Origin: an uncultured Schlesneria sp.
Lineage (GTDB): Bacteria; Planctomycetota; Planctomycetia; Planctomycetales; Planctomycetaceae
Assembly: GCA_903871875.1 (NCBI GenBank)
Contig: CAIQIR010000062.1
Span: 1-64,000, forward strand
Length of the DNA: 64,000 nucleotides
Direction of reading: 5' to 3'
Below the pieces are notes generated by a model, which saw only the letters and a list, made by a program, of their open reading frames with translations, had not been told where the DNA came from and did no database searches. Shown piece after piece: positions 3,263 to 26,808 of this stretch. The number at the start of each line of letters is the position of its first letter. The first letter of the stretch is position 1. The position numbers were made by a program, and so were the translations under genes.

Positions 3263-3365
3263 CTCCCGACTCCTACTTGAGTGACGTCTTGCTTGATCTC
3301 GTCGACCCATTGATCGTCGAATTCGTTCCAGACAATCGAAATTTCGTCCTGTCAGGAAATCGCGA

Positions 3366-4259
3366 GTGACACCGGCCGAACAGATCGAGCTTGCCTGCCT
3401 GATGGAAGCCACGGCGAGGAAACCAGGTAACGTCCACCCCGCCGCAGCTTTCAACGATCTCGACTACAACGATTTCGTCCAGGCCGCCAGCGCCATCGCC
3501 CGGCCCCTGGCGACAGCCCCCGATGTCGGATTGGGACGAGCCATTTTCGATGCCGTTCAAGCCACACGAACGGCCACCGGCACCAACGTCAACCTGGGCA
3601 TCGTTCTGCTGTTGGCGCCGCTGACCGCGGTACCCGAATCCCTGTCGCTGGAACAAGGCCTCCATCAGGTCTTGAACCAGACAACCGTCGCCGATGCCGA
3701 ACAGGTCTACGCGGCCATCCGTCTCGCTGTACCCGGCGGGTTGGGTGAAGCCGCGTCGCAAGATATTTCTCAAGCCCCCACGGTCACGCTCCAACAAGCC
3801 ATGGCTCTGGCAGCCGATCGCGATCGCATCGCCGAGCAATACATCAACGGGTTTGACCTGGTATTCCAAGCCCGTCGTCAACTCGAAAAGTTGTTCGCCG
3901 ATCAACTCGACTGGGAAGAGGCCATGATCCGGCTATTCCTGTGGATGCTGTCCCAATGGCCCGACACCCTGATCGCCCGCAAATGCGGGCCCGCCGTCGC
4001 CCAGGAAGCGTCATCCCGAGCCGCCGCCGTCATCAATCGAACCGACACGAACGGGAAGTCGCCCGGGTCAACATCAGGGACAATCAACGAACAACTACTG
4101 TTCGAGTTCGACACCTGGCTGCGAGCGGACGGTCATCGCCGCAACCCCGGCACCACGGCCGACCTGGTGGCCGCAACTCTGTTCGCCGCCCTGCGAGACG
4201 GATTGATCACGGCCCCCTCATTCGACGACGTTCGACAACGCGCCGCAGCCATTCGCTAA
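3366..4259 (+). CDS. CitG/MdcB-like triphosphoribosyl-dephospho-CoA synthase family protein
   Basis: This 297-residue, mostly helical, soluble protein has the CitG-family signature near its N-terminus (ACLMEATARKPGNVHPAAAF). The start is GTG. Classical CitG makes the prosthetic-group precursor of citrate or malonate lyase, but no lyase genes are present. CitG-like proteins of this type also occur near tetrahydromethanopterin-linked C1 genes of planctomycetes, methylotrophs and archaea. The adjacent PTPS-like gene 95 bp downstream supports a pterin or C1-cofactor context by inference. The C-terminal segment RRNPGTTADLVAATLFAALR is the usual conserved end of the family. Family membership is fairly secure; the exact reaction is not. 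Confidence 0.8.
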   Translation: MTPAEQIELACLMEATARKPGNVHPAAAFNDLDYNDFVQAASAIARPLATAPDVGLGRAIFDAVQATRTATGTNVNLGIVLLLAPLTAVPESLSLEQGLHQVLNQTTVADAEQVYAAIRLAVPGGLGEAASQDISQAPTVTLQQAMALAADRDRIAEQYINGFDLVFQARRQLEKLFADQLDWEEAMIRLFLWMLSQWPDTLIARKCGPAVAQEASSRAAAVINRTDTNGKSPGSTSGTINEQLLFEFDTWLRADGHRRNPGTTADLVAATLFAALRDGLITAPSFDDVRQRAAAIR

Positions 4260-4354
4260 GCAGCCCAGTGAAAACTCGCATGGAAACCGGCTGAAAACGA
4301 AGTACCATGGTCAGGTTCTCTCTCCCCTACCGCTGACATTCCCGAGACACGATC

Positions 4355-4861
4355 ATGAACAGCGAACGATATCGCGTGCGTGTGACTAAAGACCACCTGG
4401 TGTTTAGCGCGGCGCACTTCATCACGTTCAACGGCAACATTTGCGAACGTCTGCACGGCCACAATTGGCGAGTCGCCGTGGAAGTCGCCGGCCCCCTGGA
4501 CGAAAACAGCTACGTCTTCGACTTCATCGCCCTCCGCGATGCCACCCAGCGTCTGGTCACTGAACTCGATCATCACATCCTGCTGCCTACACAACATCAA
4601 GCAATCCATGTCACGGCCGACGAACGCGAAGTCACGGCCACGTTCGAAGAACGCCGCTGGGTCTTCCCCCGCGAAGACTGCATCCTGTTGCCGATCGAGA
4701 ACACCACCGCCGAATTGATCGCTCGTTGGATGGCCCGCCGGCTGAAGGATGTGCTGCGTTCGACTCCCGGCGGCCAGAAACTCGAATCACTGACCGTCGA
4801 GATCGAAGAAAACTTCGGTCAATGGGCCATCTACCAAACCGACATCACAAAAGTGAGCTAG
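4355..4861 (+). CDS. 6-pyruvoyl-tetrahydropterin synthase / 6-carboxy-tetrahydropterin synthase (QueD) family protein
   Basis: The 168-residue product has all the marks of the PTPS/QueD T-fold. Zinc-binding histidines are at H21 (FSAAHF), H34 and H36 (CERLHGHNW), the catalytic cysteine position is C30, LDHH sits at about 71-74, and a C-terminal PIENTTAE carries the pterin-anchoring glutamate. Such enzymes act on dihydroneopterin triphosphate in queuosine, biopterin or related pathways. An insertion of about 30 residues (around 80-110, AIHVTADEREVTATFEERRW) lengthens it relative to the usual 120-140 residues. The neighbouring CitG-like gene suggests a role in a modified pterin such as a methanopterin-type cofactor, which is inference. 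No other queuosine genes are nearby. Confidence 0.85.
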   Translation: MNSERYRVRVTKDHLVFSAAHFITFNGNICERLHGHNWRVAVEVAGPLDENSYVFDFIALRDATQRLVTELDHHILLPTQHQAIHVTADEREVTATFEERRWVFPREDCILLPIENTTAELIARWMARRLKDVLRSTPGGQKLESLTVEIEENFGQWAIYQTDITKVS

Positions 4862-5114
4862 CCGGTATCACCAACAACCAAAGCTTTCCGCCCCCCTCCT
4901 CTGACCTCTGTGCCCTCCTTTTCTCTGTGTTTCAAACTCCGAATTCTCTTCTGGCGCCACCCAGGCAACATGGACGCAGGACCGCGAAAATACGCGACGA
5001 AGCGTCTCCCACAAGCACGCCTGTCATTCATTAAATTGTGAAAGATCTGAATTGCCAGAGATCAAAGTCAGCTTGGTGCGCGACGCCCATCATCTCGAGT
5101 AAGACAAACAAAGA

Positions 5115-5143
5115 TTTGAAACACAGAGCGGCTGTGTTTCAAA
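5115..5143. repeat. Perfect inverted repeat, 12-bp stem
   Basis: TTTGAAACACAG and CTGTGTTTCAAA flank the 5-base loop AGCGG. The right arm belongs to a longer segment that repeats an earlier one at 4923-4951 (common core CTGTGTTTCAAACTCCG). There is no T-run after the stem on either strand, so it is not a typical intrinsic terminator. Confidence 0.7.
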
Positions 5144-5239
5144 CTCCGTATTCTCCTCTTCTTCCCCAGGTTCTTCTCCGAGGCTCATCGCACCCAGCAA
5201 ATGTTAAAATGGGAAAGAACGTGTTTTTTCAGAATCGGA

Positions 5240-5360
5240 TGATCAACATTGATCAAGTTGATAAACATTGACCAACACCCTTGTTTTGTAGTGTTTGGCC
5301 GATTTATCCCAATGATCAATATTGATCAACATCCGTATTTCGTAGGGTTTGACCGACTCT
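5240..5360. repeat. Cluster of TGATCAA(T/C)ATTGATCA palindromes within two direct repeats
   Basis: Three related 16-bp units occur: TGATCAACATTGATCA (5240-5255), TGATAAACATTGACCA (5259-5274) and the perfect palindrome TGATCAATATTGATCA (5313-5328). The last two are each followed by a similar about 35-bp tail: ACCAACACCCTTGTTTTGTA then GTGTTTGGCCGA, and ATCAACATCCGTATTTCGTA then GGGTTTGACCGA. A related piece (ATTGACCAACGCTCTTATTT) is at 11756-11775. The array could be operator sites for a dimeric regulator or a dispersed repeat; nothing in the window settles which. Confidence 0.65.
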
Positions 5361-6019
5361 GCGGATCTCAACATCCCCGCATCGCCGGAACGATCCCACA
5401 CCGTGGCCCCATTCCACGCGGCATGTCGCGAAGCTCCTTCTCCGACGATTCGATCCACCACCAAACTCTCCCGCGCCAATGTCACCAACAAGATCACCCC
5501 GATCGCGCCGAGTAACGACGCATCCCTCCAGACCATCAAACGAACCACCTCGACGAAACCGAATTCCACGTTCCTACCCCACCCATCAGCAAACGACAAC
5601 TGGCCCAGAACTTCAGGATCACCAGCAACAAATCCGAACCAAACGACGTACAAAACGGCACCACATCTCGATCATACGCAGACGACAGAGATTGTCGACG
5701 CCAATTTGACGCTTGTTTCCAAACGTTTGGAAGACTGGTCAAAAAGAACCCTCGCTCGCCAATTTTCAGCGTCAGACAACGACAACTAACTCAAATCAGC
5801 TTGAACCAGACCAGTCAGCACCAATCGCCCGGACCATTGGCAACTCAACGCCAAGCGACGCTGGATTTTCACGTTACGGCGACAGATCCAATATCTCACG
5901 CATGTGGACCGCGCCGGTGAGCCATAATTCATCGCGAGCAATGGCCAAATTGATCGGACACTGTCGATAATGCCAATATCGGGCTAGCCCCAAAAGAACG
6001 GGAATTCGTAGCTCCGCCT

Positions 6020-7354
6020 TCAACGCGTCGCGACAGTTCGCAGCCACCAATTCTTTCCGAAATACACCAATACCGCGCAAACACCGAAGACATCCAGGAA
6101 GACAATAGAAGCGGTCCAAAAGTCCCATTGCTGACCCGGACTCGACTGTTTCTGAAGCTCGAACTTGACCACAGTGAGATGAGTTTCCGCATCCTTCGCT
6201 GTTTTTGTCGTCAAGGGCTTTGCATCCTTCAACAACCGTGGCAGATAGTCTCGACCGACCCGAAGCAGCGACATCGACACCGAATCGAGCTTTACTGCGT
6301 CACGATTCAGCTTCGGAAGTAGCGTTGCAAGCTTTTCTTCGGATTGTTTTTGAAATGCCTCCCAGCTGGCGGGATCGACATCCTTCGAACGCAACTCTTT
6401 CAGTTTTGCAAACATCTCGGCCAAGTCTGCATAGACTTGCCTTTGGGTGATCAGAGAATCCGCAACTTGAGCAATGAGCGGCGGGGCGACTGCGACAGCC
6501 ACCGCGACGAAGACCGACACCTGAACGGCTCGGTACCAGAATGCTCGGTTGAGCAGCGAAAGAATTAATTCAAACGTCGACCGGAATGCACCCCATGCAT
6601 AACAAAAGGCGGCGCTGAGGCCCGATGTGATCTGAACGTTCAAATCACTCGATGACGACTTCAACTGGTCGCGTCGAGGCGTCGTTTTTTTAAATTGCTT
6701 GCTGTCGAGACATTCCGCGAAGAGCCGCTGCATCTCGATATTTGCCGGGAGATGAGTTGCCGCCGAATCTGGTTTCGCCGATTTTCCGGCAGGGGTAATT
6801 GGCGAGGATTGGGGAAATTCGAGCCCGGCGATTTCGGCCGCGGTCATCCATTGGAGGCTATCCGCCAATCGGACAAAGGTCTGTGGTACGACAATGCCGT
6901 TGCGAACGGCCAGCAGAAATTGCTCCGTATCAATCGGTCCGACGGCCCCCTCTTTTGTCCGGTAAATCCATCTGTTACTCGTTACCGGCATGTCCGACGA
7001 AGTCGGCACAGCTCCCGAATTTGTTTGCCGTTTCTCGAGATGATTGAGCGGGCGAGAAGCACCGGCTGGAGTTCGAACATCAGATTGTTTGGTTGGAGTT
7101 GTTCCCGTGGGAGACCGAGGCTCTGGCCGTGTCGGCTCGATGAGCTGAGTTGACGCCACCGAACCATCCTTCGACGGGAAACCTGTTTTCGTTGAAGCCG
7201 CAATCAGAAAGGAGACGTCGCGCCACGCCCCACCAACCCCGCAGTACTGGTCTCCAGCACTCAATGTTCCGCGGCCAATCAGCTCACGAATCGCGGTCAG
7301 CGAAACCGGACCGAATTCCATCCCAAGAGTTCTGTAGAAGTATTGATCCGGCAT
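6020..7354 (-). CDS. GYF-domain-containing membrane protein
   Basis: The 444-residue product carries two GYF_2-like domains. The first is at residues 1-45 (FYRTLGMEFGPVSLTAIREL); the second is at about 120-165 (WIYRTKEGAVGPIDTEQFLL), where the W/F-Y-R-x6-GP pattern with a helix is characteristic. A Pro/Thr-rich linker lies between them. The C-terminal half has hydrophobic segments at about 270-300 and near the end (about 410-435) around a long charged helical region, so the protein is probably an inner-membrane protein. GYF_2 domains bind proline-rich or peptide ligands and are common in planctomycetes. ATG 7354 is preferred over an in-frame TTG four codons upstream. It is the last gene of a leftward group. 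Confidence 0.75.
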   Translation of the reverse strand: MPDQYFYRTLGMEFGPVSLTAIRELIGRGTLSAGDQYCGVGGAWRDVSFLIAASTKTGFPSKDGSVASTQLIEPTRPEPRSPTGTTPTKQSDVRTPAGASRPLNHLEKRQTNSGAVPTSSDMPVTSNRWIYRTKEGAVGPIDTEQFLLAVRNGIVVPQTFVRLADSLQWMTAAEIAGLEFPQSSPITPAGKSAKPDSAATHLPANIEMQRLFAECLDSKQFKKTTPRRDQLKSSSSDLNVQITSGLSAAFCYAWGAFRSTFELILSLLNRAFWYRAVQVSVFVAVAVAVAPPLIAQVADSLITQRQVYADLAEMFAKLKELRSKDVDPASWEAFQKQSEEKLATLLPKLNRDAVKLDSVSMSLLRVGRDYLPRLLKDAKPLTTKTAKDAETHLTVVKFELQKQSSPGQQWDFWTASIVFLDVFGVCAVLVYFGKNWWLRTVATR

Positions 7355-7557
7355 CGTGAACCTCAACCGTCATTGACAGCGACCAAAGCCGATCGGAAAC
7401 CGTTGACATCAGAATCGACGCCCAGTTGTGATCGGCACAGGCCGATGAACTACTATTTCGTCGTTTGCCTTCGCAGCTAATTCATTCATCTCGTTGGGCA
7501 CGAACTTTTCACCCCCAAGGCAATCATCCGTTCTGGAATGATTGCCGATCGAGAAAA

Positions 7558-8883
7558 TTACACATGGTCATCTGCCGAAATCTCTGAAGGACTTAATGAC
7601 TCTTTAATCGGCTTACCAAGCTTTCGCCGCCGTAGTAGCCACATCGTCACCACAGAGACGGCAAGTCCGGTGCCCACGGTGATGTTGTATCTTACTTGTT
7701 GGGAACGCGAATCAACGAAAGCAGGTTCACAATTTCCAGTTAGCGACTTCAATTCGACAGGCGTTGGCCGCCGAGAAACACCGTTTTCAGCGACGACATA
7801 CACACGATTTGAAACCTGATCATTCACGACCGCACCGACCGGAATCTCCAGAGCAAATCGACGGGAGTCTTCAGGTTGATTGACTTCGTGGCGATCGACT
7901 TCAACCTGAACGGACTGGAACACTTCAGCCTGACCCGGATAGTCACCATCGGGATTGAACACCATGATCGTCCAGGCGTTCGGAAACCAGCCGGCATCCT
8001 GATCGTGCGCATATTCAATATCGAATTGCTGGCGAAGATGACCGCCCAAATAGTTCATCGCGCGAACCACGGAGAACCCCTTTTCGGGAACGACCCACAA
8101 TCGAGAAGACACCCCTTCGTCAGACTGAACAACGATCACCACGCAGGAATCGTTGCCAATGGTTGACGTTTCATCTTGCAGGACGAAACCTTGATCGGGT
8201 GATTTCACAACCAGAGGGATCATCGGACGAAAGGCCATCAATACAGGCCAGAATATCAGGCCTGGCGAAATTCGGCACTTTGAGTTCAGGACTAGTGAGG
8301 TTGATGAATCGCGAATCGTTGCAAGCGAGGGCCAGCCGCTAACTCCGTCCAGCAGCTCCCGATGATTAGCTGGTTCCCAGACCAACTTGAAGTGATAGGG
8401 AGAACGATCCCACTTCCTCACGTCGTCGTGGCCTCGTCGCATCGAGTCAACGAATTTCGGAAACAGGCTCTCCTTCGAATAGCCGGCAAACTCCCGGTCC
8501 AGTTCGGCGTACCAACGCCTCGCCTCGTAACAGATTTTATGGCCAGACAACCACAACGACTCCAAAACAGGTTGATGTTGCCGATCCGCCGGAGTTGAAA
8601 ACTCGGTCTGATAATTGTTCGGACTTTTCGCGGAATCACGGGCAACGTGCCAACTCATGTGTACGGTGTTGAAATGATGTTCGCGATTTGACCACTCGGT
8701 CGTAATGTCCGTCACGGAAAGAGAGTGCTGACGAAGATTTTCCTTCTCGTCCTGACCAAAAATGAAATTGGGCGTGACCAATAGCAACGCCCCAAAAATA
8801 GCAATCAACGCGGCGATGCCGCTAACCGACATGTGTCGGTCAGTGACCCATCTCAATTCCGTGCTCGTAATCTGGATTGCCAT
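7558..8883 (-). CDS. Unknown protein with N- and C-terminal membrane anchors
   Basis: This 441-residue product is not assigned to a named family. A hydrophobic segment near residues 20-42 (VSGIAALIAIFGALLLVTPN) acts as signal or anchor. A second segment close to the C-terminus (ITVGTGLAVSVVTMWLLRRR) is followed by a positive cluster, suggesting a large extracytoplasmic domain anchored at both ends with a cytosolic tail. The middle is a beta-rich region of the kind often seen in planctomycete outer-membrane-lipoprotein-carrier-like proteins. The start ATG overlaps the upstream esterase stop (TGATG), so the two are probably translationally coupled and may work together. Confidence 0.7.
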   Translation of the reverse strand: MAIQITSTELRWVTDRHMSVSGIAALIAIFGALLLVTPNFIFGQDEKENLRQHSLSVTDITTEWSNREHHFNTVHMSWHVARDSAKSPNNYQTEFSTPADRQHQPVLESLWLSGHKICYEARRWYAELDREFAGYSKESLFPKFVDSMRRGHDDVRKWDRSPYHFKLVWEPANHRELLDGVSGWPSLATIRDSSTSLVLNSKCRISPGLIFWPVLMAFRPMIPLVVKSPDQGFVLQDETSTIGNDSCVVIVVQSDEGVSSRLWVVPEKGFSVVRAMNYLGGHLRQQFDIEYAHDQDAGWFPNAWTIMVFNPDGDYPGQAEVFQSVQVEVDRHEVNQPEDSRRFALEIPVGAVVNDQVSNRVYVVAENGVSRRPTPVELKSLTGNCEPAFVDSRSQQVRYNITVGTGLAVSVVTMWLLRRRKLGKPIKESLSPSEISADDHV

Positions 8884-10280
8884 CACTCTACTTCACGAAG
8901 CCGAAAATGCCGCCACTGAAGACTCGCATCTTGTGGTTGTACTTTGATGGAAAAGGTTCCGGTATGGTTCAAAAGACCGTCGTGCCGAAGATCGTGCAAC
9001 TTCGATCCATTAACCTCCGCCAGCAAGTGGTTGCCATCGATTCGAATGCGCACGTCGTTCCAGATCCGCTGAAAAATCGCTCGCTGAGCGGTTGGGCTGG
9101 GCATCTGCAGACACTCCTGAGTAGCAACGTCGTAAACCCCTCCGCTACCAGATTCGGGGAGTGCAATCTTGATCACGATGTTGTCGCCATCCCTTGACGG
9201 AAACAGCAATTCGAACTGTCGCCCCGCTTCGTACCGGACCTCGAAATGCAGCTCGTACCCCCGAAACGTCGTGTCGTAAAACATCACGCCAGGGCGGCCA
9301 TTTGCCGTTGTGTTGTCGAAATGCAGGTTTCCCGCTTCGTCGACGGACCAACCTTCTTCCGCCGAGCGATTTGGCTCAGAGAATTCCTCGCGACCGACGA
9401 TCATCTTGAACAGGCGGCCTTTGTTCGCGGCATTGCCACTTCGCGAGTGACTCAACAGCCAGGAATAAGTAGCGTGATTGCGATACGCAACACCCCAAGC
9501 ATTGTGCTTCCACCAAACGTCGGAAAGCGTCCCATCAATCTCGGTCATCAAGGGGCTTGCCCCCCGTTTCAGCAACTGAATCTGCATCCTGCGATTTGCC
9601 TCCAGCCCTCTTTCGCTATCGCCACGAACATAGAAATCCCAGATCGGCAACTGGGCATCCGCAATCCTCTTGGCGGAATCTTCAAGACCAATGGCAGAAC
9701 CTTCAAAATCAGGCGCCCCTGAAACGGGTGCCGCTGCAGCGAAGAGCTGGGGGTACATTGAAACCAGCGACCAGACCCCAGTCCCGCCGGATGAAACACC
9801 CGTTAGATAAACTCGGCCTGGATCCGTGTTATAGTCACGCTGCGTCTTTTCCATGAGCGCCAATGTGAGCTTCCCCGCGATGTCATCTGCGCCCCAAGTG
9901 CTCCCTTTCACACACTGCGGAAAAACAACGACGAAAGGAAAGGCATCCCTCGTTTCCCACATCGGCGGCCCCAGACACTCGTAAATATGCTGAATCCCCT
10001 CGTCGCCATTCCCGGAATTTCCGTGCAGAAACACGAGCAGGGGTGGCTTAATGCCCGCTTGAAGACGGTAGGGTACGAATACGACGTATCGATGTTCTCC
10101 GCCACCATCATCAAAATAGGATCGTCGCAAGAAACCAGGCCTGCCACCTTTCGTGAAGCCATCATAATTATTTCGGATCGCCGCCCGTTCGGCGGGAAAC
10201 AACAACATCCCTGCGGCAGCATTAGCGCCGACAAAGCACAGAAACCCGAAAGCGCACCAAGCTAGAGATCGGCGATTCAT
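8883..10280 (-). CDS. Secreted esterase (PHB-depolymerase-like alpha/beta hydrolase) with DUF1080-like C-terminal domain
   Basis: The 465-residue product starts with a signal peptide (about 1-22). It then has an alpha/beta-hydrolase domain with an oxyanion region LLVFLHGNSGNGDEG, the nucleophile elbow GVSSGGTG (Ser as GxSxG), a likely acidic residue in YVRGDSE and the catalytic His in WWKHNAWG. The fold resembles feruloyl-esterase/PHB-depolymerase-type hydrolases. From about residue 285 a beta-sandwich of the DUF1080 (3-keto-disaccharide hydrolase, LamG-like) type follows, with GVMFYDTTFRGYELHFEVRY and a C-terminal LQWRHFRLREVE. Such two-domain exported enzymes are typical of planctomycetes that degrade polysaccharides. 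Its substrate, perhaps an acylated glycan, is inference. The downstream gene overlaps its stop. Confidence 0.8.
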   Translation of the reverse strand: MNRRSLAWCAFGFLCFVGANAAAGMLLFPAERAAIRNNYDGFTKGGRPGFLRRSYFDDGGGEHRYVVFVPYRLQAGIKPPLLVFLHGNSGNGDEGIQHIYECLGPPMWETRDAFPFVVVFPQCVKGSTWGADDIAGKLTLALMEKTQRDYNTDPGRVYLTGVSSGGTGVWSLVSMYPQLFAAAAPVSGAPDFEGSAIGLEDSAKRIADAQLPIWDFYVRGDSERGLEANRRMQIQLLKRGASPLMTEIDGTLSDVWWKHNAWGVAYRNHATYSWLLSHSRSGNAANKGRLFKMIVGREEFSEPNRSAEEGWSVDEAGNLHFDNTTANGRPGVMFYDTTFRGYELHFEVRYEAGRQFELLFPSRDGDNIVIKIALPESGSGGVYDVATQECLQMPSPTAQRAIFQRIWNDVRIRIDGNHLLAEVNGSKLHDLRHDGLLNHTGTFSIKVQPQDASLQWRHFRLREVE

Positions 10281-10416
10281 AAGCTACAGTTGGTAAATAA
10301 GGACAATCCAGGAGTCTTAGAATGTCGTTGTTTTTGTGCCACTAACAGACTGCGAACCATAACGATCTAAGAGCGTCCATCACGTGGAAACAGACCAGGC
10401 CAATTCGCGTACCACG

Positions 10417-11553
10417 TTAAAACGGGAGGTCAAATGCTTCATTGCTGTCACGCTTGTGCATGTTGTACCAGACGTTAAGGTCCACAACATCGCTGACAAA
10501 ATGGGCAGAACTATCAAGCATCAGGACGTGAACCCCCCCAGGATGCAGGCTTCGAGCAGTCGCTTGTCCGTTTGTTTCATTGGAGGTCACCAGACAAGGC
10601 ATCCGTTGTGCGTTGAAAGCACCGGCACCCATCGCTGTCACAGTGGCCGAGCACCCCACAATATCGTCCGCGCTCGCCAACTGGTTGTTGGGGCCACCAC
10701 CATCATTTTTGGGAAAAGACAGAAGACCATGACGTGCCGCACCACTCGCACCAATAAAACCAAGCGCCCAGGTTCCTCTCGAGTCAGCGAGATATACTCC
10801 TGAGCGCAACTCATCGACGGCCACCATGTTTGACTGCCCGACCGTCACGTCGGCAAGCGTGATTGACACATTAAAGCCACCAACTCCCGTACCGATCAAC
10901 GTCATGTCCTTGTTCATCAAATCGGGATTGTCAACAGTGAATCCATCTGTGCAAGTTGGTTGAAGCACCATCACGCAACCGCCGTCCGGGCCGATGTTCA
11001 TGCCGTAGTTGCCCCGCGCATATCTATTCATGTCGGCCCCAGTCCCATAGTCCCGTTGATAGTACTTTCCACTCTGGCTGTAAGGGTCACTTGGACATTT
11101 CAATACTGCCACATCGGCCATTCGCACCGCCGCGTTTTCTGCGGCGGACACGGGAACAAGAGGATTGTAATTCTGATACAAAGCGCCTTGATCGAGAAAT
11201 GGAAGCAACATCACGAGCCAGTTCGCATTCGTGCGATCGGGTTCCGATTCCGGCGCGAGCCCCCGCGCAACACGATCAATCACTCCGATCGGAAGCCGGC
11301 CCCCCCCAAGTGGCTCACCCGGCGGCCCCGACCAAACGGCAAACGGGGGCAACACTTTGTTTTGATCATGGTAGTTATGCAGCGCAAGCCCGATTTGCCG
11401 AAGATTGTTTAAGCATTGCGTACGCCGAGCAGCCGCACGCGATTGCTGAACTGCGGGCAAAAGCAGCGCCAGCAACAATCCAATGATGCCCACTGCCACC
11501 AACACTTCGATCAACGAAAATCCACGACGGCAACGATCCCGAGACGCTTTCAT
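10417..11553 (-). CDS. DUF1559 domain protein with type IV prepilin-like N-terminus
   Basis: The 378-residue product has a class III prepilin signal (RRGFSLIEVLVAVGIIGLLL), with a Gly-Phe cleavage site and the N-methylation motif. It is followed by the planctomycete DUF1559 core with NNLRQIGLALHNYHDQN and ends with a His-Gly motif region (LHPGGVHVLMLDSS). DUF1559 proteins are expanded by tens to hundreds of copies in planctomycetes and are thought to be pseudopilin-like cell-surface proteins. A leading MKASRDRC precedes the processing site. It heads a leftward group with the esterase (136 bp), the membrane protein and the GYF gene. The family call is secure; function is unknown. Confidence 0.92.
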   Translation of the reverse strand: MKASRDRCRRGFSLIEVLVAVGIIGLLLALLLPAVQQSRAAARRTQCLNNLRQIGLALHNYHDQNKVLPPFAVWSGPPGEPLGGGRLPIGVIDRVARGLAPESEPDRTNANWLVMLLPFLDQGALYQNYNPLVPVSAAENAAVRMADVAVLKCPSDPYSQSGKYYQRDYGTGADMNRYARGNYGMNIGPDGGCVMVLQPTCTDGFTVDNPDLMNKDMTLIGTGVGGFNVSITLADVTVGQSNMVAVDELRSGVYLADSRGTWALGFIGASGAARHGLLSFPKNDGGGPNNQLASADDIVGCSATVTAMGAGAFNAQRMPCLVTSNETNGQATARSLHPGGVHVLMLDSSAHFVSDVVDLNVWYNMHKRDSNEAFDLPF

Positions 11554-12111
11554 TCCCTTGGTCCTTTCGTTTTGGATCTCGATTTGAAATCGATAAATTT
11601 GCGCGGGCTATTCAGCACGAAACGCCGACCCGAGCCGCAATCACCCACTCCAAACCGTTCATTTATGAAGCATCGATGGATTTTCCAGCAAGACCCCTTA
11701 AGATTCTCGCATCACGGAAGCCACAATGCGCACATTCGATACACACGCAATCCATATTGACCAACGCTCTTATTTCAAACAGAGTAACGATGCCCAGCTT
11801 GTTTTCAAAGGAATAATCGGGTCGAGTTTTGTCAAAAGTCGCGAAAAAATGACAATGTGACTCAGGCGATTTCAGAGGGTGACATCGCTCGACGTTGACC
11901 GCCTTCGACGAGCCGACTGCAACGCCGACGAAAGAACGGCATTAGGAAGACGGATATACTTAGCAACTCCCCTGAAGCGACGTTGGCGACAGATATCGTC
12001 GAATATGAGAGATGCGCTTCGACCGATGTTTCTGCAAACGAAACAGAGATGCATCTTCGACAAGCGGTTTATTCCGCGCAGCGAGTATCTCAAGGGGCTT
12101 TGGAGAAACGG
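11554..12111. other. Divergent intergenic region
   Basis: About 560 bp between the leftward DUF1559 gene and the rightward chimeric ORF. It must contain both promoters. One copy of the ATTGACCAAC...CTTATTT element is at 11756-11775. Open frames in the right half extend the chimeric ORF upstream without a recognisable domain. I see no gene here. Confidence 0.5.
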
Positions 12112-13050
12112 ATGTCAATGAGACACATGAGCCGCGACTTTCGCCTGGATTTCTTACGTGGTATTGCTCTGCTTGTCGTTTTGATCGACCACATTGAAGC
12201 CCAGACTCCGATCGCTTTGATTCGTGCCTGGACCCCACGAACCATCTGTTTTTTTGACGGTGCCGACGCGTTCGTATTTCTGTCTGGACTCGTGTTTGGC
12301 CGAGTCTTTCGAACCAAGCTTGTGCAAGACGGATTTCTCGCCTGTCAAACAAAAGCGATCCGGCGCGCATTAAGAATCTATGCGACGTATTTGCTTACAG
12401 CATGGATTGCGATTGGTCTTGGAATCTACTTTCGGGATTTTTCGCCGAATCTTGCCTCATTGTTGACTCTGGAGACCGGCATTACCAATTGCGTGTACCG
12501 ATCAGTCTCGATGTCATACCAGCCGTACGGATTGGAGATTCTCGCGCTCTATGCGACGGTCTTTCCGTTCTTACCCAAGGCATTTTGCGGAGCTTGCGTC
12601 GCCGCCTCACTCCTTGGCAGCCTGTCAACCTTCCCTCATTCAATGTCATACTTCAATCTCGCCGCCGGAGGACCGCTGGGCGGGCCAAAGCATTTGCTGG
12701 ATGCAAATGCCGACTGGGGACAGGATTTGCTGGAACTGAAACGCTTCGTCGATTGCCATCCCGAAGTCGTTCCGATTCAACTTGCATACTTCGGTTGTGC
12801 GGACCCCAACATAGCCGGATTTCCTCACGAATCGATACTCCAAAACGAAAAGAATGAATTGGCACCAGCCTTTAAGCCAGGGTGGTATGCAATCAGTGTG
12901 AATCATGTCTTCGGCTATCGACACTATGACTACGACAAGCCAACATTTACTCGCTTCCAAAGTCTCACTCCAGATGCCATGGCTGGGTATTCAATCTATA
13001 TTTATCATGTGACCGAGGACGCGAGCGCTATACTTAATTCTGCACACTGA
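12112..13050 (+). pseudogene. Chimeric ORF: OpgC-like N-terminus joined to a glycosyltransferase-39-like C-terminus
   Basis: The 312-residue frame is open but looks like two truncated genes. Residues 6-158 match the start of OpgC-type acyltransferase membrane proteins (RDFRLDFLRGIALLVVLIDH, FDGADAFVFLSGLVFGRVFR), which normally run to about 370 residues with ten membrane helices. From about residue 160 (nt 12575-12610) the sequence becomes the extracytoplasmic tail of planctomycete GT39/ArnT-like membrane glycosyltransferases (FPHSMSYFN, LLDANADWGQDLLELKRF, AYFGCADPNIAGFP, GWYAISVN, AMAGYSIYIYHVTE). Neither half has its active-site-bearing core complete. ATG 12112 has GGAG 6 nt upstream. Probably a deletion fusion and non-functional. 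The neighbouring transposase remnants support past rearrangement. Confidence 0.7.
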
Positions 13051-13142
13051 CTTTCACACTCCGATGATTCACTGAGCGTTGCGCAACGAGCTTAACTTCT
13101 CTATTGCAGAAGCTCTAACAGCCCGTTGAAAGATGCCGCCAG

Positions 13143-13460
13143 TGGACACGGAGTTGTTCCGCCGTTGGCTTGAGGAAGCCGAAGTCGAGAAGCGCCTTGG
13201 ATCCTCGCACAATGCGGTCTCGCCTGGAACCGATGAAGCGGGTGGCTCGGATGCTGCGCGCCCATAGCCCTCTCATTCTCAACTGGTTCTGCGCACGGGG
13301 TACGATTTCCGCAGGCGCCGCCGAGGGATTCAATAACAAGGCGAAACTGGCAACCAAAAAGGCGTAGGGCGTTCGCACCTAGGAAGCGATCGAAATCGCC
13401 TTGTATCATCAACTTGAAAAGCTACCTGAGCCAGATTTCACCCACCGATTCGGGTGGGGA
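13143..13460 (+). pseudogene. ISL3-family transposase C-terminal remnant
   Basis: The frame reads TMRSRLEPMKRVARMLRAHS, then LILNWFCARGTISAGAAEGF, then NNKAKLATKKA, followed by a TAG. After that come GVRT, another TAG, and EAIEIALYHQLEKLPEPDFT. This is the well-known C-terminal end of ISL3-type transposases (SRLEPMKK...LILNWF...GLNNKAKL...GFRT...IALYHxLGxLPEP). Two in-frame stops and absence of the N-terminal two-thirds make it a pseudogene. Terminal inverted repeats are not identifiable. Confidence 0.8.
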
Positions 13461-13994
13461 GGCGATGTTTATGGGGTAAATCAAAGTCGTAGGTTATCAC
13501 GATGAATTCGTCGCCTGTAACCCGCTTAACCTAGAGCACTTACGCCTCTGGCTAACCGCATCAAAACAGATCGTGCATAAAATATCGTGCATACGCGACG
13601 CGATTGCGTATCTTTTCGCAAACATCATGTGTATTTTATCACCACGACCATTCACCCATCGCACCCAGCGAATCACACAGAGCCTGAATGTCTGCATTTC
13701 TACGACAGAAGCGTCAAACAACCTGAACGTCGGAAGCACAAATGCGAAACAGTATCATTCAAGACCCCACCCGCGCACAGCCTCGAAAGCATTGGGGAGC
13801 GACTTGCTCGCTTTTGCCCTGCACACGTCGCCTCACTTTCGAGCAACGAGCCAGCGCCTCAGGTGAACGAAGAGCTAACGCACCCACAAGAACCGACGCC
13901 ACCCCAAAAGCCACACCTGAATTGCCGACGACTAGGCTAGGCTTTCCCTGATTGAAAAGTCGATTGATTCGGTGACAGATTGCGACGAGGAAGT

Positions 13995-14225
13995 GTGCTT
14001 CGTCGGCGGATTTTCTGGGTGAAATTCCGCCTTGGTAGCTCTTAAAGCTGATGATACAAGGCCATTTCGATCACCGGGTAGGCACGAAAAGTGCCAGCGA
14101 TTTTTGGGCGTCAGGTTCGGTTTGTTATTAATGCCTTTTACCGCGCCTGCCGAAATTGCACTGCGGGTGTGAAACCCGTTGGGAATCAACGTGCGATGGC
14201 CTCGCAGCCTCCAGCGACACACTCC
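13995..14225 (-). pseudogene. Second ISL3-family transposase C-terminal remnant, inverted
   Basis: On the minus strand the translation runs RWRLRGHRTLIPNGFHTRSA, then ISAGAVKGINNKPNLTPKN, then after a frame change IEMALYHQL, a stop, and ELPRRNFTQ. It corresponds piece by piece to the ISL3 tail at 13143-13460 and is more decayed, with at least one frameshift and one stop. Nucleotide similarity is strongest at the end (GATCGAAATGGCCTTGTATC against GATCGAAATCGCCTTGTATC), so both derive from related elements. Upstream sequence toward 14400 shows no further homology I can recognise. Confidence 0.7.
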
Positions 14226-14429
14226 ATCAGTCCCAGGCAGGGTGGCAATGTTCGGGAATGCGGCTTGCACAGTCCCCGCACTGCCCAATCGGATTAGAAG
14301 CATCCACAAAGTCGCTGAAACCCTTGATTGGGCAAGTAGGCCCCGAACCGACGCAGCGCAGAGTCGCCGTTCGCTTATTGGTGATCTATTTGCCAAGAAT
14401 CCACACCGAGCAGATTTAAAAACGGAGGC

Positions 14430-15653
14430 TCAGTAATCGTAGGAGGTGCGAAGCATGAGGCTGTCTTGGGGGGAGTAGTTGCCGATGTCGGAGCGGTATT
14501 GGACCGAGCGGTCGAAGATCCAGCCGATTTCCAGACGAGAGACGTGGCCGGTCGCGTCTTTTGATTCGACTCCGGCGATCAGGCGGTAGTCGCGATAGGT
14601 CACGGTGTCGTACGACCGGTCGGAACGGCTGATCGCCCAGGAACCGCCTCCCAGTTCTCCGTTCAGATAGAGCCAGTGTTCGTATTGGCCGTTTTGACCG
14701 TAACGCCAGGCGATTCGGGGTTTGGGGAAGACGAGGTCTAGGCGGATGTCGCTGTCGGCGGGGGCGTAGATCATCCCGACGACGGGCAAATAGCGGATGT
14801 CCTGGCGGGCTAAATCGGTGACACCCAGGACCCAGCGGAGATCATTGTCCAGCTTGTAATACGAAACCAGGTGCCAGGGCAGGCGGAAGGCTTCGACGCC
14901 CTTGTTGGAAAAGTCGGTGTACCAGCCGGGCGAAATCATCGCGTCGATCATCAAGCGGTCATCGACTTCATAGGTCGAGCCGACGTTGATCAGGATGTTG
15001 AACAGTTGTGGCGGCAGGTCGGTGATGTTGGGGCCGGACAGCCATTTCGCTCCGAAGGTCGTGTCGAAGTAGATCGGGTTGGGACGTGTGGCGTCGTATC
15101 TCGTCCGCGCGAGCGGTTCAAAGTCGAGTTCCGTCATGCCCAGGCGGTTGTTGGAACCGGCGATCCAACCGAGTGACGTTCGACTGCTGAGTAGTGCGGG
15201 TTCGTCGTCCGGTTTGGTCCGCCCGTCTTCTCGGGGAGCCCCATCGAGTGGGATCGCTTCGAAGATTGGTCGGGTTTCGGGGTCGGAGATGGGAAAGTTG
15301 ATGGCAGGCGCGGGGTCGATCAATGTTTCCAATTCCTCGTGCTGAACCGGGATGATCGATGACGGCTCGCCCGTCTCTTTGGTCTCGGGAGTCTCGTCAA
15401 AGTACGGTTCGTTGACCGTCGGCGGGGACAGGAAGATGACGACGTCGGAACCGAAGGAAATCTCGGTTTTCAGTTCGAACAGCGATGATCGCCGGTTCGT
15501 GGACGGATCGGGCGGCAATAGCGACTGGGTGCGACCGGGCCGGAAGATGCGCGGCAGTTCGACGTTCGTTGATGGGTCGGGTGCCCAATCGCCGGCCTGT
15601 AGCACGGCACTGGAGATTCCCCAGAGCCAAGCAATGACGAAGCGATAGCGCAT
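14430..15653 (-). CDS. Exported protein, probably outer-membrane associated
   Basis: The 407-residue product begins with a signal peptide (MRYRFVIAWLWGISSAVLQA). A Pro/Thr/Glu-rich segment up to about residue 160 follows. The C-terminal 240 residues alternate short hydrophobic and polar strands with many aromatic and acidic residues (RYLPVVGMIYAPADSDIRLD, SRLEIGWIFDRSVQYRSDIG) and end with an aromatic C-terminus (TSYDY). That is the layout of an outer-membrane beta-barrel or barrel-like protein. I recognise it as similar to uncharacterised planctomycete proteins (DUF6268-like), not with certainty. The start at 15653 is chosen because the signal peptide follows it directly; an open frame continues 48 codons upstream. 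Confidence 0.65.
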   Translation of the reverse strand: MRYRFVIAWLWGISSAVLQAGDWAPDPSTNVELPRIFRPGRTQSLLPPDPSTNRRSSLFELKTEISFGSDVVIFLSPPTVNEPYFDETPETKETGEPSSIIPVQHEELETLIDPAPAINFPISDPETRPIFEAIPLDGAPREDGRTKPDDEPALLSSRTSLGWIAGSNNRLGMTELDFEPLARTRYDATRPNPIYFDTTFGAKWLSGPNITDLPPQLFNILINVGSTYEVDDRLMIDAMISPGWYTDFSNKGVEAFRLPWHLVSYYKLDNDLRWVLGVTDLARQDIRYLPVVGMIYAPADSDIRLDLVFPKPRIAWRYGQNGQYEHWLYLNGELGGGSWAISRSDRSYDTVTYRDYRLIAGVESKDATGHVSRLEIGWIFDRSVQYRSDIGNYSPQDSLMLRTSYDY

Positions 15654-22189: not shown

Positions 22190-23404
22190 TCAGTCGAACT
22201 TCCGGAGCAGGCGACGATTCTGGTGCTTCAGACGGAGTGCTTCGTCGGCCGTGCAGATGACGACGATGTCGCCCTCGCGTTCGACGACATACCCGCGAAT
22301 TTTGGCGATCGCTTTCAGCGCCGCCTCGAAGGGAACCTCCCGCAGCGTCAGCGAAATCAAGCCCGTAACTTCGGGGCCGGGCAGGATGCTGACGCCGGCC
22401 ACTTCACTCAGTTTTTCAAAGAACTGCCGCACATCGGCGTCGTGGACCTCCATCGTGTAGACCTCGGAATGATCGCTGCCGAGTTTTCGACTGATGCGCA
22501 CGAATTCTTCTAATGAGGCGGACTTCGCGGGTGACGGATAAGACGGAACCTCGACCGCTGCGTTTAGCGATGCAGTCACCGGGTTTTTGAAAACCTCTTC
22601 CGTCGGAGCGGGATGCGAGAAACCGATTGCAGGGTTCGCCGCTTCGGCCACGACAGTCGCCTTCTGGACTGGACGAGTGGTGACTGGCGACTGTTCGACA
22701 CGCGCTTCTCGCCGGGGTTGTTCCTCGACCGTTTCCGAACTCGCTCGCAAGCGGAACTTCAACGTCTGTTCGGCCGCCTGCTGTCTGACGCTGGTCTCGC
22801 TGAGGTTTTTAATCGCGTCGAGGAAGACCGTTTCGCGTTGCAGGAACTGCGATTGCAGTTGGGCATTGTTTGATTGATGTTCGCTTTGTTGCTGCGCCAA
22901 TTGATCAAGGCGCTGCCGAACTTCCCGCAGCTGACCTTCTAATCGGCTGGTCGATACGGCCGGGACCGATTCACTTTCGTTTTCGGCAGAACGAGAGAAC
23001 TTGGGATGGCGGTGAGCACTTTCGTGATCAGCCGTCGATCGGTCGTGATCCAAAACCGGTGTCTCGGCCGATGGCGATCGGACGGGCATTTCGATCGAAC
23101 TGTGTCCCGTCACCGAACCGGTCAGGCTCGTTTCCGGTCGCGGATGACGAACCAACGGCGTGGGCGACGTTTCGTCCGATCGGATACTGGCGTTGCGGAC
23201 GGAAACTCGGCGGGAATCGCCATCAGTCGTGGGGTTTGTCGAGCCCCATCCCGTCACTTTGGCGAATTGAGCCCACCGGGGATTCGCCGTCGATTGCAAT
23301 TGGCGATTGCGGATCGTTCCGAACATGAACACGACACCGGGAATTGCCAAGGCCAGTAGCAGTGCCCAAAATGCCGTGTGGAATGAACTTCGGAATCCCT
23401 GCAT
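22190..23404 (-). CDS. Membrane-anchored protein with C-terminal secretin/TonB N-terminal (STN) domain
   Basis: The 404-residue product has one N-terminal membrane segment (FHTAFWALLLALAIPGVVFM). A long polar region follows, then a predicted coiled coil around residues 150-215 (LEGQLREVRQRLDQLAQQQS). The C-terminal 90 residues are an STN-like domain (YTMEVHDADVRQFFEKLSEV, PFEAALKAIAKIRGYVVERE, GDIVVICTADE). STN domains usually precede a secretin channel, but no channel domain follows, so this is not itself a secretin. It may be an accessory factor of a type II secretion or pilus machine. ATG 23404 is used; a GTG seven codons upstream lacks support. Confidence 0.75.
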   Translation of the reverse strand: MQGFRSSFHTAFWALLLALAIPGVVFMFGTIRNRQLQSTANPRWAQFAKVTGWGSTNPTTDGDSRRVSVRNASIRSDETSPTPLVRHPRPETSLTGSVTGHSSIEMPVRSPSAETPVLDHDRSTADHESAHRHPKFSRSAENESESVPAVSTSRLEGQLREVRQRLDQLAQQQSEHQSNNAQLQSQFLQRETVFLDAIKNLSETSVRQQAAEQTLKFRLRASSETVEEQPRREARVEQSPVTTRPVQKATVVAEAANPAIGFSHPAPTEEVFKNPVTASLNAAVEVPSYPSPAKSASLEEFVRISRKLGSDHSEVYTMEVHDADVRQFFEKLSEVAGVSILPGPEVTGLISLTLREVPFEAALKAIAKIRGYVVEREGDIVVICTADEALRLKHQNRRLLRKFD

Positions 23405-23462
23405 TGCATCATCCCTGATCGCCACCGATCGAATCGTTCGCCTGGGCCACGCTCGTCATTTT

Positions 23463-24512: not shown

Positions 24513-24854
24513 ATGGCCGACGCAGCGCAACCCGTCCCCGAACCGGAACGAACCGCCACGACTCAACCTGTACAACAGGTCATCGAACCCACCGATCTGG
24601 AGCCGCTTTATGCGAATTTCGCTCGCGTTTCCGGGTTGCCGGAGGAACTGATTCTCGATTTTGGTCTGAATCCAGCCGCCGCAGGGGCACAACCGGTTCC
24701 CGTCAAGGTTTCGCAACGCCTGGTCGTGAACTACTTCACCGCCAAACGACTGTGGTTGGCGCTGGGAGCGTTCCTGCAACGGCACGAACAGGCCTTTGGT
24801 GAAATCCAAATCGACGTCAACAAGCGAATTCTTCCGCAACGCAGTTCCAAATAG
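24513..24854 (+). CDS. DUF3467 family protein
   Basis: The 113-residue soluble protein carries the DUF3467 layout. A middle segment (LEPLYANFARVSGLPEELIL) is the conserved 'Y-A-N-x-x-x-V-x-x-x-x-x-E-x-x-x-D-F' region, and the C-terminal helix (KRLWLALGAFLQRHEQAFGE) is typical. The N-terminal 30 residues are Pro/Thr/Gln-rich and probably disordered. ATG 24513 has GGGAG 8 nt upstream. It opens an operon with three membrane proteins: the next gene starts 9 bp after its stop. Function of the family is unknown; the operon context links it here to a complex-I-like membrane unit, which is inference. Confidence 0.8.
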   Translation: MADAAQPVPEPERTATTQPVQQVIEPTDLEPLYANFARVSGLPEELILDFGLNPAAAGAQPVPVKVSQRLVVNYFTAKRLWLALGAFLQRHEQAFGEIQIDVNKRILPQRSSK

Positions 24855-24862
24855 CTCGCACC

Positions 24863-25711
24863 ATGGACGAATCCTTCCTTCCCTGGTGGCTCGTGCTGTT
24901 GCTCGGAATGTGGGCCGCGGCGCTGACTCTTTGGCAGCATCCGTCGGTCCACCGCGAGGTCCGGCTGTGGGCAGGTCTGTCGACTCTGGTTTATCTGGGT
25001 CTGATTTTCCTGGCCCTGGGATTGGGCGGGCGCGTTGCCAATGCGGAAGGTTCGTGGCTGGCCGCGTTTCGGTTGGACAAAGTCGGCCTGGCGGGTTGCG
25101 TCATCGTCAGCCTGACCAGCAGTGTCTGGATGCTGGGGCGTCTTTCTGTTCGCAGTCGACGTCTTTGCTATGTCCTGCTGACGACCTCGAATGCCGCGTT
25201 TTGTGCGTTGGTACAAGGACCAGAAATGGCCCTGGGGCTGCTCGTGATCGCCGCCATTTCCGCGTGGCCCCTGATCCAGGAATGGCGACGGACGACATTG
25301 CGATCACCGCGTGAATGGCTGGTCGGCCTGGTCCGATTTACCGAAACACCGGTACCACGCGACCAGATCGGCCTGTTCTGGTTGATTGGCGGCTTAAACG
25401 GAATTCTGGCCTGTGCGTTGATCGGAACCCTCGCTTACTCGCTCAGAATCGAGACCTCGCGGATCTCCGCCAGCCCCCGGTATACAGCGTTGCCGTCGCG
25501 GGAACAGCTCGACCGAATGCAGACATCATTCCACGATCCGGCCGAGAAATCCGGTTTACTCGATCTGGCGACTGGTCAACGCGCTGATGTTGTGGTCCTG
25601 CTGGCGGCGATCGTCTTCCTTAGTCTGGCGACCAGCCTGAACGATGCGTCCTCGCAACAGGACGCATTGAAGGAACCCGCCCACGAGCATTCGTCGGAAC
25701 ATCTGATATGA
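24863..25711 (+). CDS. Membrane protein resembling complex I subunit NuoJ, with N-terminal extension
   Basis: The 282-residue product has about seven hydrophobic segments. Residues about 95-138 (SVRSRRLCYVLLTTSNAAFC, ALVQGPEMALGLLVIAAISA) align by eye with helices 2-3 of NuoJ, where R-N-P-x-x-[SA]-x-x-x-x-L and GAEFxAxxxVxVYxGA are conserved. The Y and G of NuoJ helix 3 are not kept. An extra about 90 residues precede this and a polar loop of about 45 residues (195-238) precedes the last helix. NuoJ normally has 165-200 residues and five helices. The NuoK- and NuoL-like genes that follow make the assignment more credible. Alternative: an unrelated multi-pass protein. Confidence 0.55.
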   Translation: MDESFLPWWLVLLLGMWAAALTLWQHPSVHREVRLWAGLSTLVYLGLIFLALGLGGRVANAEGSWLAAFRLDKVGLAGCVIVSLTSSVWMLGRLSVRSRRLCYVLLTTSNAAFCALVQGPEMALGLLVIAAISAWPLIQEWRRTTLRSPREWLVGLVRFTETPVPRDQIGLFWLIGGLNGILACALIGTLAYSLRIETSRISASPRYTALPSREQLDRMQTSFHDPAEKSGLLDLATGQRADVVVLLAAIVFLSLATSLNDASSQQDALKEPAHEHSSEHLI

Positions 25712-25720
25712 GGAACTCGC

Positions 25721-26011
25721 ATGGACGGTGATCTCTCGAGTTGGAGCAGCGGACTCTTACTGGCTGTCCTGTGTGTATTGCTCGGAACGATCGGGGTCGT
25801 GTCGGCATCCCGTTCCGAAGAACGATGGCTGGCGAGCGGACTGCTCTGGCAAGGGACGTTATTGACCTTCGTCGTCGCCGGAGCTTATTTTCATCGCTCA
25901 TCACCGCTTTATCTGGGAGGGCTGGTCGTGTTGGGATTGCTGATGATTCAGACGCTACAAAAAAGGGAATTCCACGACGACAGGCCCGCTAACCAGGACG
26001 AAGTGGAATGA
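25721..26011 (+). CDS. Small three-helix membrane protein resembling NuoK
   Basis: The 96-residue product has three hydrophobic helices (about 11-29, 36-55, 59-77), the size and topology of complex I NuoK. SASRSEERWLASGLLWQGTL lies where NuoK has R-R-N-L-[IV]-x-x-L-M-x-[IV]-E-L-M. However, neither membrane glutamate essential for NuoK proton transfer is present: GIELM corresponds to GLLWQ and the helix-3 glutamate falls in LGGLVVLGLLM. The resemblance is therefore structural and positional. It lies 9 bp after the NuoJ-like gene, and its TGA overlaps the next ATG. Confidence 0.5.
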   Translation: MDGDLSSWSSGLLLAVLCVLLGTIGVVSASRSEERWLASGLLWQGTLLTFVVAGAYFHRSSPLYLGGLVVLGLLMIQTLQKREFHDDRPANQDEVE

Positions 26012-26808
26012 TCGTGCCGGTCGCGAGCCTGTTGATTGTCACCGCCGCATTTCCGGTGCTGGGCGGCATTGCAGTGCTGGGGGCCAGCCTTCGAGGCCAG
26101 CGGAAAGCCAGCTTGCTGCTGACTCGACTGGGTCTGATCGGGGGGGCGGTCTGCGGAGCGATCCTGGCGGTCCTGCTCGCTCGCGAACCCGAGTCGGTGT
26201 CGCCGACGGTTCAATTGTCGCTCTGGACGTGGCTGTCCTGCTCCCTGCCGCTGTCGCCTTCGATTACCTTCGGACTGGAAGCCACTTCGATCAAAGCCTG
26301 CCTGGTCAGCCTGACCGGCGGACTGGCCCTGATCGCGTTATGGAACGCCGGTTCGTCCACAAAAAGTTCGCTGTCGGACGAGGCCATCCTGACGACAAGC
26401 CTGCTGTATGCCGCCGGGACCATTTTTGCCTTCGCGCCGAACACAGCTCAGGCCCTGCTCGGCTGGGCAGGGATCAGCTTGCTGGCGGTAATCTTAATTC
26501 GGCTGTCGCACCAACAACGGCCTCCGCAGTCCAGATACAACGAGACGACCCTGGCCCGTGGCACAACGACGTCCGGCGGCGAGCTGATGACCGACCGCTT
26601 GATGCACCGCTTGCGGTCCCTGGAATCGACCGCCGGATATCTGGAAAGTCTGTATCTCGAACGAGTCTGGCGGGCCTTCACCGGCCGTTGGCCCGATTGG
26701 GCGGCTGAGCAGACCGAAGTCCTGGAAGACCGTTCGGTCTCGATCCGACTTTTGGCGATGACCTTAGGAGCATCGGTCATCTGGCTAACCTGGCTGATCG
26801 GCATCTGA
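26008..26808 (+). CDS. Shortened NuoL-like membrane protein
   Basis: The 266-residue product looks like the two ends of NuoL (normally over 600 residues). The N-terminal 130 residues (VASLLIVTAAFPVLGGIAVL, SLWTWLSCSLPLSPSITFGL) match the first helices and the L-Y-x-W-[IL] periplasmic strand before 'F-x-L-D-x-L-S'. The last 70 residues (LESLYLERVWRAFTGRWPDW, SIRLLAMTLGASVIWLTWLI) match the NuoL end with its soluble connector and final helix. The central antiporter bundle with channel lysines and glutamate is absent. The ATG overlaps the NuoK-like stop codon, so the proteins are coupled. The assignment is by order and pattern only. Confidence 0.5.
   Translation: MIVPVASLLIVTAAFPVLGGIAVLGASLRGQRKASLLLTRLGLIGGAVCGAILAVLLAREPESVSPTVQLSLWTWLSCSLPLSPSITFGLEATSIKACLVSLTGGLALIALWNAGSSTKSSLSDEAILTTSLLYAAGTIFAFAPNTAQALLGWAGISLLAVILIRLSHQQRPPQSRYNETTLARGTTTSGGELMTDRLMHRLRSLESTAGYLESLYLERVWRAFTGRWPDWAAEQTEVLEDRSVSIRLLAMTLGASVIWLTWLIGI

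Follow-up and report, generated by a model that had tools for sequence, protein, structure and literature searches.

We analysed a 64,000-nucleotide stretch of DNA (hereafter the window) from an uncultured Schlesneria sp. of the Planctomycetaceae (contig CAIQIR010000062.1, which is contig C62 of the source genome G000, an assembly of 7.6 Mb). In it a DUF3467 gene is followed by three open reading frames (ORFs) for membrane proteins, the second to fourth ORFs of the locus, which we call B, C and D or together the trio. The membrane subunits of complex I are usually understood only as a pump. Our best explanation, held with about even confidence, is that the trio is the J-, K- and L-like part of a J-K-L-M-N set derived from the complex I membrane arm, and that this set is retained, non-pumping, dispersed in the genome and still shrinking. 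Somewhat less confidently we propose that in the Planctomycetaceae a whole J-K-L-M-N arm may have become a separate non-pumping assembly with a new job, kept across several genera, with its outer subunit cut down to contact helices.

Scans with single proteins were too weak to decide what B, C and D are, so their identities rest on profile comparisons. Pfam gave nothing above cut-off for B, C or D, whether from the window or from three relatives. The best NCBIfam match of window D was NuoL (E 6e-4, residues 7-166 on profile positions 3-154 of 615), and one of three C relatives matched NuoK (E 0.008) with a further weak NuoK match at E 0.21. Against PDB the C profile produced seven matches up to E 10, all to NuoK or the plant or cyanobacterial subunit 4L (E 0.06-0.87), and the top match of the B profile was the NuoJ chain 8e9g_J (E 0.19). 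A profile of the short form of D found only three unrelated matches at chance level. Contig searches with the B alignment returned five Schlesneria records and those with D alone returned none.

Using hhalign we compared these proteins with canonical J, K, L, M and N profiles built from the window genome, its relatives and Escherichia coli. B scored 42.8 with NuoJ (other subunits at most 14.1; columns 1-292 on 16-282 of 282), C scored 42.3 with NuoK (others at most 16.3; columns 1-113 on 5-133 of 170) and short D scored 22.1 with NuoL (others at most 3.7), while no wrong pairing of B, C and short D with J, K and L exceeded 16.3. Long D scored 212.7 with NuoL, the next being NuoM at 42.6, and the longer D relatives of 491-633 amino acids (aa) aligned over 1-602 on NuoL 1-676. 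Among the controls, reversed profiles reached at most 9.5 and the best of 100 column shuffles each was 11.4 for B, 8.8 for short D and 10.2 for long D. Shuffles of C exceeded 120 once in 100 and twice in 200 (next best 13.3 and 11.3); the two from the run of 200 were one-column alignments and the alignment of the third was not printed. C has the size and topology of NuoK (96 aa, three hydrophobic stretches), and B, which matches the NuoJ profile over its full length, carries a two-helix N-terminal extension as in planctomycete NuoJ. When searched against 170 genomes of the family the B profile also matched a canonical nuoJ (G058, contig C506, E 4e-7) that sits in an operon scored J-K-L-M-N by canonical profiles. 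Judged by profile comparison, B, C and D are homologous to NuoJ, NuoK and NuoL, respectively, and their profiles do not match the other subunits in this way.

The trio is conserved within the genus. B was present in 14 of 15 Schlesneria genomes (G140, 89% complete, gave none) and in all 14 it is adjacent to C and D. B and C are unshortened across Schlesneria. D measures 235-298 aa in eight genomes including that of the window, 491-493 aa in two and 627-633 aa in four. The six longer forms have Proton_antipo_M above the Pfam cut-off, with NuoL matches at E 1e-12 to 1e-29. In E. coli NuoL numbering, window D keeps approximately residues 1-165, with five helices, and approximately 568-613, which by mapping and hydropathy correspond to the end of the lateral region and the last helix. 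The 491-aa form is without approximately 322-480 in the same numbering. L has been shortened step-wise inside the genus, from 630 to 491 to 266 aa.

We then compared the residues of the proton path, whose roles were taken from the available text of PMC9271201. Six canonical or intact rows were trimmed at the N-terminus, where the ORF caller had extended upstream of the gene. K229, K342, K399 and D400 of NuoL are present in 14/14 canonical rows and in 0/10 degenerate long L rows; the L-like rows do not show the NuoL pattern of a Lys/Asp pair with central and distal lysines, and the region is absent from the 266-aa form. NuoM K234 is found in 16/16 canonical and 0/29 M-like rows, NuoN K247 and K395 in 14/14 canonical and 0/30 N-like rows, and NuoK E36 and E72 in 14/14 canonical rows and none of 16 C proteins. 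NuoN K217 was not decisive, since half of the canonical rows (7 of 14) have Arg at this position. In helix 3 of NuoJ, the VYAGA segment of the pi-bulge region occurs in 12 of 14 canonical NuoJ rows and as a variant in the other two, and all 16 B rows have a 3-column gap there and no YAGA. In these alignments every one of the five members of the set shows loss or erosion of the proton-path residues. Because L and N have lost their central and distal lysines and K both glutamates in every row, and window-type L has lost its entire channel region, canonical proton pumping by the set is very unlikely.

An initial annotation of this DNA had described reduced NuoJ-, NuoK- and NuoL-like subunits in a stripped unit derived from complex I. 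Its three subunit identities agree with the hhalign scores, its statement that the NuoL-like protein lacks the central antiporter helices agrees with the mapping, and the missing membrane glutamates of the NuoK-like protein and the loss of pumping residues are borne out by the residue counts. The gene order that it proposed to look for in relatives is conserved as B-C-D within the genus. The word "reduced" applies to NuoL only, since B and C align over nearly the whole conserved part of the NuoJ and NuoK profiles.

One alternative is that the set, in the manner of a distant Mrp-type antiporter, still transports an ion or a small solute through the membrane along a route that bypasses the canonical Lys/Glu chain. 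Lysine is often replaced by arginine (K229 of L in 9 of 10 rows, K395 of N in 24 of 30), and K265 and E407 are each present in 12 of 29 M-like proteins. However, window-type L is without the entire channel region, C is without Glu in helices 2 and 3, and the Lys and Glu residues given as essential in Mrp by the available text of PMC5703873 are mostly missing; we consider this alternative rather unlikely. The Mrp (CPA3) antiporters do resemble the set in having homologous subunits, MrpA and MrpD being homologous to NuoL, NuoM and NuoN and MrpC to NuoK (PMC5703873, available text). In contrast to Mrp, five of the six longer L-like proteins have NuoL as their best family and one has NAD(P)H-quinone oxidoreductase subunit 5, with MrpA best in none, the Lys and Glu residues are mostly absent from the set, and the Lys equivalents are absent from the L-like rows. 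By eye, the ORF lists around B-C-D held no mrp-like neighbours.

The case for a five-member set comes from genomes in which M- and N-like genes accompany the trio. In G007, which belongs to a different genus, NuoM- and NuoN-like genes come after B-C-D to give a single J-K-L-M-N operon. With the G007 N-like protein as query we found a match away from the trio in 15/15 Schlesneria genomes. The window genome has its N-like gene alone on contig C169 and its M-like gene alone on C123, so that the set is arranged as J-K-L / M / N at three places. On canonical profiles the degenerate L, M and N proteins scored 19-273 bits on their own subunit and those of true complex I scored 436-872 bits, some of the latter being cut by contig ends; the N-like protein of G008 fell below the E 1e-3 threshold.

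We examined the distribution of the set in 32 genomes chosen from genera known to have it. An N-like gene was found in 31, as 30 rows of 418-671 bits plus that of G114 in two pieces (327 and 161 bits); G009, which is 64% complete, had none. The other N rows in these genomes scored at most 176 bits, a clear gap below degenerate N. M-like genes lie outside complex I operons in at least 30 of the 32, with none for G147 and G009 among the matches listed. They scored at least 438 bits in 17 genomes, 290-352 bits in seven Schlesneria genomes and 208-272 bits in six more, and these last six, which lie inside or below the canonical band, were initially assigned by position. In five of these six (G136, G138, G139, G141 and G143) the M-like genes are open frames of 537-596 aa with NuoM as best match; adding these five takes the tally of E144 among M-like rows from 1/24 to 6/29. 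No complete ORF was recovered for G114, so that 29 of the 30 M-like matches were counted. Besides Schlesneria, B occurs in G007, in G008 (on a separate contig, 55 bits, with 62 bits for its ORF on the B profile) and in 11 of 12 genomes of genus g49. Arrangements differ between genomes (Table 1). Among 392 genomes of the phylum only that of the window and G007 exceeded 400 bits with the N profile at E 1e-50. A HEAT-like gene occurs beside the N-like gene in the window's genome (HEAT-like gene at L149 8209-9552) and near J-K-L in G136 (HEAT-like gene at L048 4860-6278), and the two copies are 49% identical. As a trace of old linkage this neighbour was not used, because of 12 further N loci tested, some of them short, only one had it.

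Searched at E 1e-55 against the 170 family genomes, the N profile gave 53 matches, namely 31 degenerate N proteins, the NuoN of 16 genomes at 271-316 bits and six at 191-225 bits. The five of the 16 that were looked at (G058, G075, G103, G165 and G166) have runs of canonical-type complex I genes, in which by eye a NuoH-like gene precedes J (G166, G075) or a NuoI-like gene is present (G058), and unlike the set they retain the pumping residues in the rows aligned. The band of scores at 271-316 bits suggests that complex I of the G058/G166 type, found in other genera of the family, is the nearest canonical relative of the set, a ranking by score on which the trees do not decide. The B profile matched genomes of six of the nine intact-type genera, weakly, and some in other genera too. 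The intact type and degenerate N were found together in none of the 32 genomes. Maximum-likelihood trees placed the degenerate rows in a single group for N (support 99/99), L (96/96) and M (84/97). This points tentatively to a single origin, tentatively because the branches are very long.

True complex I genes remain in genomes with the degenerate set. The source genome also has a second canonical-type nuo cluster, H-J-K-L-M-N with pumping residues intact (L026, G000 C58:155001-175000, 6958-15062), around which by eye no A-G or I genes lie within 7 kb before or 5 kb after. Other kinds of Proton_antipo_M proteins are encoded in G000 in two diverging pairs on C59 and in an operon on C142 that by eye resembles one for hydrogenase 4.

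B, C, D and the M- and N-like proteins might be spare parts that are swapped into real complex I to give an alternative, less coupled form. The subunits do match position by position, and all 31 genomes with degenerate N also have at least one lower-scoring canonical-type N. On the other side, short L has lost most of its lateral helix, and in E. coli both assembly and activity depend on that helix (PMC5703873). We regard this alternative as improbable.

Selection on the genes was estimated as pairwise ratios of nonsynonymous to synonymous substitution rates (dN/dS) among relatives by the Nei-Gojobori method with our own script. We obtained 0.21-0.29 for B, 0.22-0.38 for C and 0.20-0.32 for D, where the pairs involving the window, with dS of 2-3, are rough and saturation affected one of the B pairs. 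The N-like genes gave 0.15-0.22 and the M-like genes 0.19-0.26. DUF3467 gave 0.05-0.07, and canonical genes of the same species gave 0.02-0.09 for NuoJ and 0.00-0.06 for NuoK. Ratios of 0.15-0.38 indicate that the genes are retained under a constraint weaker than that on NuoJ and NuoK of true complex I.

These values bear on the main rival explanation, that the set is a decaying relic: an extra complex I would have lost its catalytic part, and its membrane genes would now be slowly disappearing. Constraint several times weaker than on true NuoJ and NuoK would fit a relic, as would the loss of whole helix blocks from L within one genus, the scattering of the genes and the incomplete-looking sets in places. 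However, the B frames are open in all 14 Schlesneria genomes with B, dN/dS is well under 1 in every unsaturated pair, B-C-D remains adjacent, the M-like frames are open in the 29 genomes read, and 31 of the 32 genomes from the chosen genera have the N-like gene. We judge decay to be unlikely, though a stronger contender than the other alternatives. Persistence in several genera together with purifying selection argues for use.

The first gene of the locus does not appear to belong to the set. The initial annotation had treated DUF3467 and J-K-L as one dedicated system with DUF3467 as partner. Of the 14 Schlesneria genomes with B, 12 have DUF3467 immediately upstream of it, and only 8 bp separate the two genes in the window. 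However, DUF3467 is much more widespread than B, being present in 154 of the 170 genomes of the family, it gave no match at E 1e-3 anywhere in G137 and G138, which keep B-C-D, and in G007 about 125 kb lie between it and the J-N operon. We therefore take DUF3467 to be a neighbour, reject it as a dedicated partner on its distribution, and give the reading as one system almost no weight. Nor is the trio a whole unit, as had been claimed, since M- and N-like members stand at other loci of the same genome. All four tightly packed genes, three of them encoding membrane proteins, are where they had been annotated; of the spacings given for them, the second (9 bp) and the final 4-bp overlap are correct and the first is 8 bp, not 9, in the ORF list. 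Literature matched for DUF3467 was a study of chlorhexidine and Porphyromonas. Beyond DUF3467 and the trio there is a divergent gene both in the window (22190-23425), where by eye its end resembles a secretin/STN-type domain, and in seven relatives of the same genus (loci L018-L024).

Table 1. Genes of the locus in the window, and arrangements of the set in other genomes.
Feature or arrangement	Position or genome	Strand	Remarks
DUF3467 gene, 113 aa	24513..24854	+	Pfam PF11950 E 8.8e-14; neighbour, not dedicated partner
B, degenerate NuoJ paralogue, full length, 282 aa	24863..25711	+	hhalign vs NuoJ 42.8
C, degenerate NuoK paralogue, full length, 96 aa, without E36 and E72	25721..26011	+	hhalign vs NuoK 42.3
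D, shortened NuoL paralogue, 266 aa	26008..26808	+	NCBIfam NuoL E 6e-4; mapping and hydropathy; longer same-genus relatives
J-K-L-M in one run	G108 C549:3000-11000 (L270), 1475-6892		N-like on contig C343
J-K apart from M-N	G111		
J apart from L-M-N	G112		
L-M-N, no J found	G073, G087		
M-N, J elsewhere	G008		

The set resembles the complex I membrane arm in the homology of its five members, in the order J-K-L(-M-N) and, for J and K, in size and helix content. It differs in that the copies are degenerate with pumping residues lost, L is reduced to as little as the 266 aa of the window and the genes are scattered. By eye, no NuoH, NuoA or electron-transfer genes lie around the degenerate copies (B-C-D in 14 genomes and the G007 operon), a check that covers the ORF lists at these loci and does not exclude partners encoded elsewhere. 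Since no electron-transfer arm lies beside the copies examined, a rod built from them would be undriven and would not conserve energy. The likeliest mechanism, in our judgement, is a structural or regulatory assembly that would keep the contacts of complex I without its pump. Like the complex I subunits, the five proteins would still associate side by side within the membrane, forming a rod unable to pump that may be docked on real complex I or another membrane complex. The outermost subunit L would meet mainly one neighbour and so could shrink to the helices touching it, and the series of 630, 491 and 266 aa fits this. Such a degenerate set is not described among the open-access titles and abstracts listed, which does not prove its absence in print.

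Several observations weigh against a retained, non-pumping arm. Loss of the proton-path residues is not total: D178 of NuoL (14/14 canonical rows) is kept in 8/10 L-like rows, E144 of NuoM (15/16, one row being cut) in 6/29 M-like rows and E133 of NuoN (14/14) in 18/30 N-like rows, in addition to the partly kept K265 and E407 of NuoM (16/16 each). The M- and N-like genes are tied to J-K-L only through co-occurrence and the G007 and G108 operons. The AlphaFold models, from six sequences each, were poor (pLDDT, the predicted local distance difference test score, 48 for B and 42 for D) and lend no structural support. The single group in the trees may reflect long-branch attraction, several rows having long branches, and these branches together with the shrinkage of L would also fit slow decay. 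For function, assembly and expression the case is one made at the level of sequence only.

If the proposed reading of the set is correct, a five-subunit arm of complex I can be kept for something other than pumping. The NuoL series from 630 to 491 to 266 aa would then be a natural dissection of contact helices from transport helices. For a planctomycete strain, of Stieleria, PMC11588811 mentions an annotation of nuoL alone. Where planctomycetes are annotated with "nuoL only" or with partial nuo sets, the genes could be copies of this kind instead of complex I.

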